Origin: Natronosalvus rutilus
GTDB taxonomy: Archaea > Halobacteriota > Halobacteria > Halobacteriales > Natrialbaceae
Direction: 5' to 3'
DNA: 64,000 nt
Assembly (NCBI RefSeq): GCF_024204665.1
Contig: NZ_CP100356.1
Span: forward strand, 1-64,000
Shown: piece by piece, positions 5 to 1,773 of the stretch
Layout of the letters: each line of letters starts with the position of its first letter
Numbering within the stretch: the first letter of the stretch is position 1
Notes under the pieces: generated by a model
What the model saw: the letters and a program-made list of their open reading frames with translations, nothing else
Databases searched by the model: none
Told to the model about the DNA's origin: nothing
Made by a program: the position numbers and the translations under genes

Positions 5-392
5 TGAGTCCATGAATCCATGAATCAGTGATTCAGATATTCCCAGAGATCATGAATAACTGATTCGCAGAGCATCTGACTCAAAGACTCCGATAGACTT
101 AGGCTGAACTCATTGATTCCATGAATCACTGATGTTATGAATTGAGAATGGTGTGGAGCCATAGATCGAGAGCTCAGCAACTCCCAAGAACGCTAATCAG
201 GGAGTGAACGATTACATGATGCAATGAGTTTAGGAAGCTCTGATTCACTGAATCCATGAATCAATGAGATACATTCAATTCCTGAATTCACAGCATACAA
301 TGCCCGTACTCCCGATATTCAACAGAAAAGGGAGAATAGAACCGTAGCGAAATGTCTGACGTGGATTTATGAGTCATTGATTCAATGATCCA
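5..392. repeat. Phased heptamer iterons (putative centromere) upstream of parA
   Basis: Five clusters of the heptamer TGAATCA and its complement TGATTCA, with one- or two-base variants, each separated by exactly one base so that units start every 8 bp. Units start at 5, 13, 21, 29; at 53, 61; at 114, 122, 130; at 241, 249, 257, 265; and at 370, 378, 386. Units at 21 and 29 form a perfect palindrome with one central base. Another cluster follows the operon at 1751. Contiguous heptads in mixed orientation next to a ParA gene resemble the binding arrays of ribbon-helix-helix centromere proteins such as omega of pSM19035. That role is inferred from the family analogy. A replication origin element is the alternative, but no Rep gene lies in the window. 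Confidence 0.72.
370..392 (+). promoter_or_regulatory. Probable parA autoregulatory operator
   Basis: TGAGTCA-t-TGATTCA-a-TGATCCA occupies the space between a TATA-like element (ATTTATG, about 364-370) and the parA start at 396. A partition protein bound here would block the promoter, the usual autorepression arrangement of par operons. The site is visible in the sequence; the regulatory role is inferred. Confidence 0.5.
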
Positions 393-395
393 ATC

Positions 396-1307
396 ATGTC
401 CGAATTACCTCGCGGATGGGGCGTTACGCCATCGACTGGCATCCCGACAATTGCCTTCGGGAATCAGAAAGGTGGAACCGGAAAAACAACGGCGACAATT
501 AACAGCGCAGCGGCGTTGGGCACACGTGGCCACGACGTTCTTGCAATCGATATGGATCCACAGGCCGACATGACGAAGGGACTTGGACTGGGTCCGGGCG
601 ACGAGAACGACCCCTCGAGCCCAAAGAACGGCCTTCCAAACACGCTTGTTACGGATGATGCGAACCTCCTGGACGTTCTCGTCGACAACCCGCGTACGCA
701 CAATACAAACCTTTCAGAGATCGTAATTGAAGCCGACGAATATGACCACCTGAACTTCGATATCGTACCGAGCCACAAGGACATGGGCCTCGCTCGAGAT
801 TGGATGGACGATGCGAACGCCCGTCTCTCGTTGAAACTCGCCCTCGAGGGACTGGTTGAGGACGGGTACGACTACGATTTCATCCTCATCGATTGCCCTC
901 CTGACCTCTCGGTTTTGACGGATGCAGCGTTCATTGCAGCACAAAACGTCTTCTTAGCTGCACAAACCCAAGCAACGTCACGAGATGCCCTGGACGACCT
1001 GTGGGATCAACTGGAATCGATAGAGGACAACCAGCAAATAGAGATCGCAATCGTCGGACTCCTGGCGAATATGTACCGGGACGACGGTCAATCACAGAAA
1101 TTCCTAGATGAATTCGACGAGTCGTTCGCATCTATGGCCCCGATTTTCAAACTCCCGATGCGCGTAGCAATCCAGCGCGCCTGGGATAATGGACAAGATA
1201 TTTTCGAATGGGAGGACGCGAACGACCAACAAGTAGAGCGTGACCTCTTCGTAGAGGTTGCAGAGACCATGGAACGGGCATTCGACAAAACGCAGGTGGA
1301 GGTGTAA
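396..1307 (+). CDS. parA: ParA/MinD-family partition ATPase
   Basis: A 303-residue Walker-type ATPase expected to segregate the replicon. The deviant Walker A motif KGGTGKTT lies at residues 25-32, with the signature Lys of the ParA/MinD class. The A' motif DMDPQAD follows at 52-58, and the Walker B-like segment FILIDCPPDLS sits near 165. There is no long N-terminal DNA-binding extension, so it resembles the small (type Ib/II-like) plasmid ParAs that need a separate centromere-binding partner. The next gene starts three bases after the stop, so the two form an operon. The start is preceded by a TATA-like box about 30 nt upstream and by heptamer repeats, fitting a leaderless, autoregulated transcript. 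Family assignment is secure; specificity for this replicon is inferred from position. Confidence 0.93.
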   Translation: MSELPRGWGVTPSTGIPTIAFGNQKGGTGKTTATINSAAALGTRGHDVLAIDMDPQADMTKGLGLGPGDENDPSSPKNGLPNTLVTDDANLLDVLVDNPRTHNTNLSEIVIEADEYDHLNFDIVPSHKDMGLARDWMDDANARLSLKLALEGLVEDGYDYDFILIDCPPDLSVLTDAAFIAAQNVFLAAQTQATSRDALDDLWDQLESIEDNQQIEIAIVGLLANMYRDDGQSQKFLDEFDESFASMAPIFKLPMRVAIQRAWDNGQDIFEWEDANDQQVERDLFVEVAETMERAFDKTQVEV

Positions 1308-1309
1308 AT

Positions 1310-1753
1310 ATGCCTCGAGGAATGGATGAGCGTTTCGAGGATCCTTCAGGTGAAGAAGATGATGCTGTTACTGAAGAAGAGACCACGAGAACGTCGGAAT
1401 CAGAAGGACAAGGTCGCAAAGCAATTGCGGCATCCGAACAAGATACGAAACAGCAGAGGACCACTTCTACGGCAAATACAGATCCCTCAACCAGTGAGAT
1501 AGAAGGAATAGACGACGAACCGCTGAACATCCGCAAGGATTGGGATTCAGCCACGATCTACGTTGAACCTGAGCAAAGTGAGGACATCGAGATCACGTTC
1601 ACCCGCCTGAAAAAGCAACTCAAGCGTGAGGACGTCACCCTGGAGAAGAACAAGCACTTCTATCGCGGTGTCTTCGAGGTGGCATTCGGCGAGCACCAAG
1701 ACGAAACGAAGGAAAAAATACGTGAACTCGCCAAGCAAGATACCGATCAGTGA
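1310..1753 (+). CDS. Small acidic ParA-partner candidate (centromere-binding protein)
   Basis: 147 residues, not recognised as a known ParB. Residues 1-75 are low-complexity and rich in Glu, Asp, Ser and Thr, probably disordered. Residues 76-147 look folded: a WDSATIYVEP strand, a basic stretch FTRLKKQLKRED, then helices ending in KIRELAKQ. The gene follows parA with a two-base gap and must be co-transcribed. Its stop codon lies inside a perfect TGAATCA-t-TGATTCA palindrome, so the putative binding sites flank both ends of the operon. Position makes it the natural adaptor between ParA and the repeats. No helix-turn-helix or ribbon-helix-helix could be assigned by eye. Confidence 0.7.
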   Translation: MPRGMDERFEDPSGEEDDAVTEEETTRTSESEGQGRKAIAASEQDTKQQRTTSTANTDPSTSEIEGIDDEPLNIRKDWDSATIYVEPEQSEDIEITFTRLKKQLKREDVTLEKNKHFYRGVFEVAFGEHQDETKEKIRELAKQDTDQ

Positions 1754-1773
1754 ATCATTGATTCACTGAATTT
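1751..1773. repeat. Heptamer cluster at the end of the par operon
   Basis: TGAATCA-t-TGATTCA-c-TGAATTT, with units at 1751, 1759 and 1767. It has the same 8-bp phasing as the upstream clusters and overlaps the TGA stop of the small partner gene. It is probably another centromere or partition-protein site. From 1774 to 2186 there is AT-rich sequence with no gene I can support; an AT-rich stretch near 2109-2131 is the only marked feature. Confidence 0.6.

Follow-up and report, generated by a model that had tools for sequence, protein, structure and literature searches.

A Probable Type-Ib-Like Plasmid Partition Locus of Natronosalvus rutilus with an 8-bp-Phased Repeat Array as Putative Centromere

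The Closest Described Systems

Large plasmids are present in nearly all haloarchaea sequenced (PMC5120986), and a 2025 survey of near-complete archaeal genomes found canonical parAB pairs to be essentially absent (PMC12704722). Of the partition systems described so far, the delta/omega system of pSM19035 (type Ib) resembles the locus of Natronosalvus rutilus studied here in combining a ParA with a small centromere-binding protein that has a disordered N-terminus, both properties being predicted for the N. rutilus partner, and in repeating short words at constant intervals across promoter regions, in several clusters per plasmid (PMC9499535). The omega protein, however, reads non-palindromic 7-bp heptads (WATCACW) that follow each other without a spacer in runs of 7–10, whereas the N. 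rutilus array is made up of runs of 2–4 units of a near-palindromic 7-bp word (TGAWTCA), each with one free base, which gives a step of 8 bp. The type Ib ParA/ParB system of pCXC100 likewise has a direct-repeat centromere, with a ribbon-helix-helix (RHH) protein as partner (PMC5016525). It differs in being bacterial and from the 8-bp period found in N. rutilus, and the two are set side by side here by description only. The pCXC100 repeats are 9 bp long and follow one another without interruption, a trait shared with the distant 9-bp class of arrays described below.

Two archaeal systems also share part of this organization. SegAB of the Sulfolobales comprises an archaeal ParA homologue and a site-specific partner (of RHH type) with sites 5' of the operon, but SegB recognizes 13-bp palindromes (TCTAGA S TCTAGA) that occur singly across the chromosome, without any phased array (PMC12284271). 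The AspA-ParB-ParA cassette of pNOB8 also serves the partition of an archaeal plasmid and contains a ParA (PMC5120986); it encodes three proteins including a ParB homologue, in contrast to the two genes without a ParB homologue found here. ParABS systems with an HTH/CTPase ParB differ in the same respect, as the N. rutilus partner has no ParB match in Pfam or NCBIfam; a canonical ParB is absent. In its geometry, the array recalls the met boxes, on which RHH dimers of MetJ bind one per palindromic 8-bp box and stack cooperatively at an 8-bp step. This analogy is geometric only: MetJ is a metabolic repressor with a ligand and not a partition protein.

The features shared with type Ib are a ParA without N-terminal DNA-binding domain, a small partner directly downstream and a short-repeat array, the presumed centromere, 5' of the operon. 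The locus therefore resembles type Ib partition systems, and no known member matches it. No published description of the partner family or of its arrays was found in the open papers searched, a scope that leaves most subscription papers outside. Based on our data, we propose, with a probability of roughly 0.8, that this is a type-Ib-like par locus of haloarchaeal plasmids, in which the partner is a centromere-binding protein that uses the array both as centromere and as operator.

The Phased Array and Its Conservation

The locus lies on a contig of 339,965 bp (C2), one of the four contigs of the genome, whose bases 1–64,000 are the window analysed here. The preliminary description had reported at least 19 heptamers of the TGAATCA/TGATTCA type in six clusters with an 8-bp period, five of the clusters before parA and one overlapping the end of the partner gene. 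All of this was borne out: with the consensus TGAWTCA exactly 19 units were counted (17 with at most one mismatch and two in-register units with two mismatches), the lone unit at position 217 included, and the clusters lie where expected (table 1). Its emphasis on a mixed orientation of the heptamers does not hold, since TGA-W-TCA is palindromic around its central base and opposite orientations record nothing else than the central W.

Table 1. Features of the par locus, in window positions
Feature	Position	Strand	Remarks
Array cluster 1	5..35		Four units in 8-bp phase: 5, 13, 21, 29
Array cluster 2	53..83		Units 53, 61, 77; 8-bp register throughout
Array cluster 3	114..128		Units 114, 122
Array cluster 4	241..263		Units 241, 249, 257; lone unit 217 shares the 8-bp register
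TATA-like TTTATG	366..371	+	About 27 bp 5' of the parA ATG; read from sequence
Array cluster 5	370..392		Three contiguous units, from the TATA-like box to the parA start codon
parA	396..1307	+	303-aa ParA/MinD-type ATPase, Walker motif KGGTGKTT
Partner gene	1310..1753	+	147 aa, predicted centromere-binding protein
Array cluster 6	1751..1773		First unit begins with the partner TGA stop; further units 1759, 1767

The array resumes at the opposite end of the contig (C2:339632–339965, with units at C2:339632–339940; contig-end locus L023) and, as the window begins at base 1 of C2, the replicon is evidently circular, with an upstream array of about 730 bp. Over this region we found 16 pairs of units at a distance of 8 bp, against 0.06 expected from dinucleotide shuffles, and the sites that deviate from the consensus by no more than one mismatch number 29, against 7.3 expected; all spacings of up to 24 bp between such units are multiples of 8. 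Exact 8-bp pairs number eight within positions 1–395 and one at the end of the partner gene, and no 8-bp unit pair was found in positions 1800–64000 of the window. Counts of the exact heptamer by itself are near chance across the window (16 matches versus 10 expected, a number reached by 6 of 100 shuffles) and were dropped as evidence. In a scan of the whole genome for double units (14-mers with at most one mismatch), by contrast, C2 showed only the par locus and one par relic at C2:198996, and the 3.79-Mb contig C1 only eight matches.

The phased array is not a peculiarity of this plasmid. It was found 5' of parA in all 20 orthologous loci taken from other genomes, with 5 to 12 8-bp pairs and few off-phase pairs in each locus; together with the N. 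rutilus locus they contain 184 such pairs and hardly any off-phase. A separate collection of genome contigs, which shares some genomes with the first set, showed the array 5' of parA in 34 of 35 loci; in the exception (L101), parA and the upstream array have been lost to an unrelated transposase-like ORF, while the partner gene and its 3' array are kept. Moreover, in N. rutilus and in each of the 20 orthologous loci the TGA stop codon of the partner gene coincides with bases 1–3 of a TGAWTCA unit, behind which another unit usually follows in the same register.

Between loci, the sequences 5' of parA have drifted apart, with a median identity of some 55%. Identity is 0.80 for the unit letters, 0.59 outside the units, 0.57 for the central base and 0.50 for the spacer, which indicates that selection acts on the unit letters. 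Between the plasmids of Natronosalvus halobius and N. rutilus, one indel corresponds to exactly four units (32 bp). The promoter-proximal block, which comprises the TATA-like box and the three units reaching to the parA start, GATTTATGAGTCA[TG]TGA[AT]TCAATGAT, hardly varies among 21 loci.

Because cluster 5 fills the stretch from the TATA-like box to the beginning of parA, binding of the partner there should repress the operon, and the cluster is likely an operator as well as a centromere. One might go further and see in the whole array an operator only, with the partner autorepressing parA by coating the promoter region and segregation being independent of it. Such a role would agree with cluster 5 being the most conserved part, and centromere-binding proteins of type Ib are known to double as repressors (PMC5016525). 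We consider it unlikely, nevertheless, since some 730 bp of clusters and a second array at the stop codon, retained by every fetched locus, exceed the needs of an operator, and since in distant homologues the array sits within the partner coding region.

Association of the Array with the Partner Gene

A strict pattern of three units (at most one mismatch) occurs in 30 of the 392 genomes of the order, and the reversed pattern, used as control, in none of them. Close orthologues of the partner gene, which we found on 26 plasmids, are present in 29 of these 30 genomes against 45 of the 392 overall (Fisher p ~3e-31). Three-unit TGAWTCA arrays distant from the par locus were also observed on the same replicon in two genomes (G116 C3, at 1848, 81377, 292104, 298971 and 306795; G371 C6, at 22102 and 148611), and these may possibly be extra centromere sites.

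The tight association with the partner gene bears on the idea that an Orc1/Cdc6 or RepH initiator binds the repeats as iterons or origin boxes of replication and that parA merely happens to be adjacent. Roughly one locus in three does have a gene of the Orc1/Cdc6 type no more than about 4 kb away, and on C2 an Orc1/Cdc6-like ORF, as read from the sequence, ends just 5' of the par relic (C2:198674). Equally strong arrays, however, are found where the fetched flanks contain no Orc1-like gene, the presence of the array tracks the partner gene, and the word itself covaries with a segment of the partner protein (see below), so that an origin function seems very improbable to us. The par relic itself (C2:198674–199018; L019, 8674–9018), which lies outside the window, has retained the end of parA with its stop and the start and end of the partner gene. 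It keeps a perfect three-unit array, TGAATCATTGATTCATTGAATCA, just 3' of the Orc1/Cdc6-like ORF, and may be a centromere left orphaned beside an origin. In G297, a related plasmid, a decayed copy of the partner gene lies at a similar place.

We give equally little credit to a dimer-resolution site, in which the clusters would serve the tyrosine-recombinase-like product of the ORF just upstream for binding or crossover. A gene resembling this ORF (L023, 4267–5571) is found directly 5' of the array in about 16 of 35 loci, and int2 lies near parA in the haloviruses phiH and phiCh1. Yet five loci (L096, L107, L115, L116 and L124) have equally strong arrays with no recombinase-like gene in the fetched flank, and 8-bp steps extending over some 730 bp are unlike paired recombinase arms with a core.

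The suggestion made at the outset that the array is a centromere, and not one of the classical parS type, is instead well supported by the phasing, by the presence of the array in 20 of 20 loci, by its exclusive link to the parA/partner pair, by the sites lying just ahead of parA, behind the TATA-like box, and by the covariation of the word with a predicted strand of the partner.

The Partner Protein and Its Distant Homologues

The ParA of N. rutilus, a deviant Walker ATPase, matches the Pfam family AAA_31 (2.5e-34) from residue 18 onward and has no N-terminal DNA-binding domain; its matches in the PDB are Soj, ParF and other ParA proteins. The ATG of the partner gene follows 2 bp downstream of the parA stop, and the gene pair is kept in the fetched homologous loci. 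In the RefSeq annotation of the N. halobius orthologue the start is the second Met (MDERF); as the MPRG ahead of this Met does not vary among 33 sequences, translation probably begins four codons earlier (window 1310–1321), 2 bp after the parA stop.

Aligned partner proteins show an invariant N-terminal MPRGMxERF, an acidic variable linker and a conserved C-terminal domain. The partner matched no family in Pfam, NCBIfam or the PDB, including no ParB (CTPase or HTH) domain in Pfam and NCBIfam; the family matches PHROG 26668 and 29165, both without function, and the PHROG scan yielded no named family. A first full-length AlphaFold model was poor, with an N-terminus of low confidence. In the model of the domain, an extended strand is followed by a helix of 19 residues and then by a second, long one (overall pLDDT 73, about 90 near the first helix), an arrangement that one chain of an RHH dimer could adopt. 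Foldseek and VIA-align gave no credible structural match, a profile of the domain found nothing credible in the PDB, no RHH protein was matched in PDB, Pfam or profiles, and hhalign gave no signal against omega, a comparison of low power with three omega sequences only. An RHH fold, which the preliminary description had suggested, is plausible to judge from the model, but of all parts of the proposal it is the weakest.

From 629 in-register units of 21 loci we derived the consensus t-G-A-n-T-C-a, in which the centre is weak (0.33 bit) and the eighth base, the spacer, is free (0.05–0.10 bit); a palindromic word of this kind is what one two-fold symmetric dimer per 8-bp step would require. We infer that the C-terminal domain, probably as an RHH dimer, recognizes in every step one near-palindromic 7-bp word (t-GA-n-TC-a), so that adjacent dimers could pack side by side, and that a nucleoprotein lattice would form over the upstream array and the short second array at the end of the partner gene. 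The flexible N-terminus, with its invariant MPRGMxERF, may then contact ParA and stimulate ATP hydrolysis, and nucleoid-bound ParA would move or position the plasmid copies. Against a centromere role stand the shortness of the clusters, with 2–4 clean units, given that full stimulation of ParA in pSM19035 requires at least four contiguous repeats (PMC9499535), and the polyploidy of haloarchaea (PMC5120986), under which active partition may not be required.

Distant homologues of the partner, with about 27% identity, are also encoded after a parA, and a close or distant homologue is present in 120 of the 392 genomes. In the distant class the step of the arrays is 9 bp instead of 8, and the arrays are placed in frame in the 5' portion of the partner coding sequence, in many loci also 5' of parA with the identical word. 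As 9 bp correspond to three codons, the coding arrays encode a linker rich in Thr, Glu, Ser and Asn. Codon choice speaks for constraint on the DNA, and against mere low complexity at the protein level, in about half of the loci: the DNA repeat is stronger than under synonymous recoding (reached in at most about 20 of 1000 simulations) in about 10 of 19 chromosomal or plasmid loci and in phiH and not in the others, ChaoS9 being left out of this result.

In the haloviruses phiH (L136), phiCh1 (L135) and ChaoS9 (L132), the gene after parA belongs to the partner family, and its 5' coding region contains an array in frame with a 9-bp step; the ChaoS9 array additionally overlaps the parA start. The papers on phiH and ChaoS9 name parA alone and leave the next gene uncharacterized.

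Across these classes the repeat word covaries with a strand-like segment of the partner, which in an RHH fold would be the part that reads DNA. The predicted strand SATIY goes with the word TGAWTCA (8 bp), GRTIY with GAAACGA (9-bp arrays) in two separate subfamilies, VNMY with AGAC..CA (phiCh1, L134), and RSFY, RSVY and TSVY with AGAA-type words. N. rutilus itself has two further parA loci. One (L020, 1–1440; contig C3) has a small acidic partner gene and shows a period of 13 bp on its upstream side (ACTGGTCAGTATT type) as well as in the 5' coding region of the partner; the other (L022; contig C1, 2416000–2419500; minus strand) has an upstream 9-bp array of the ACCTATTNN type and a partner that begins MSDENPFDDLGGL. 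Different arrays at several parA loci of one genome are as expected if the arrays confer replicon-specific identity.

A broader proposal, for and against which we see the odds as even, is that a widespread family of haloarchaeal partition proteins reads lattice centromeres with one word per step, in at least two steps (8 and 9 bp), that the 9-bp centromere lies in frame in the partner gene, and that a few residues of the predicted reading strand determine the word. If so, DNA of the 9-bp class would be both a centromere and the code for a disordered linker rich in Thr, Glu and Asn, that is, a disordered protein region shaped by a function of the DNA, and words set by the strand would give compatible families of replicons inside one cell. 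For the ParA of haloarchaeal plasmids, the proposed locus would provide a concrete partner and a concrete centromere, both testable in tractable haloarchaea and including those of the classic virus phiH.
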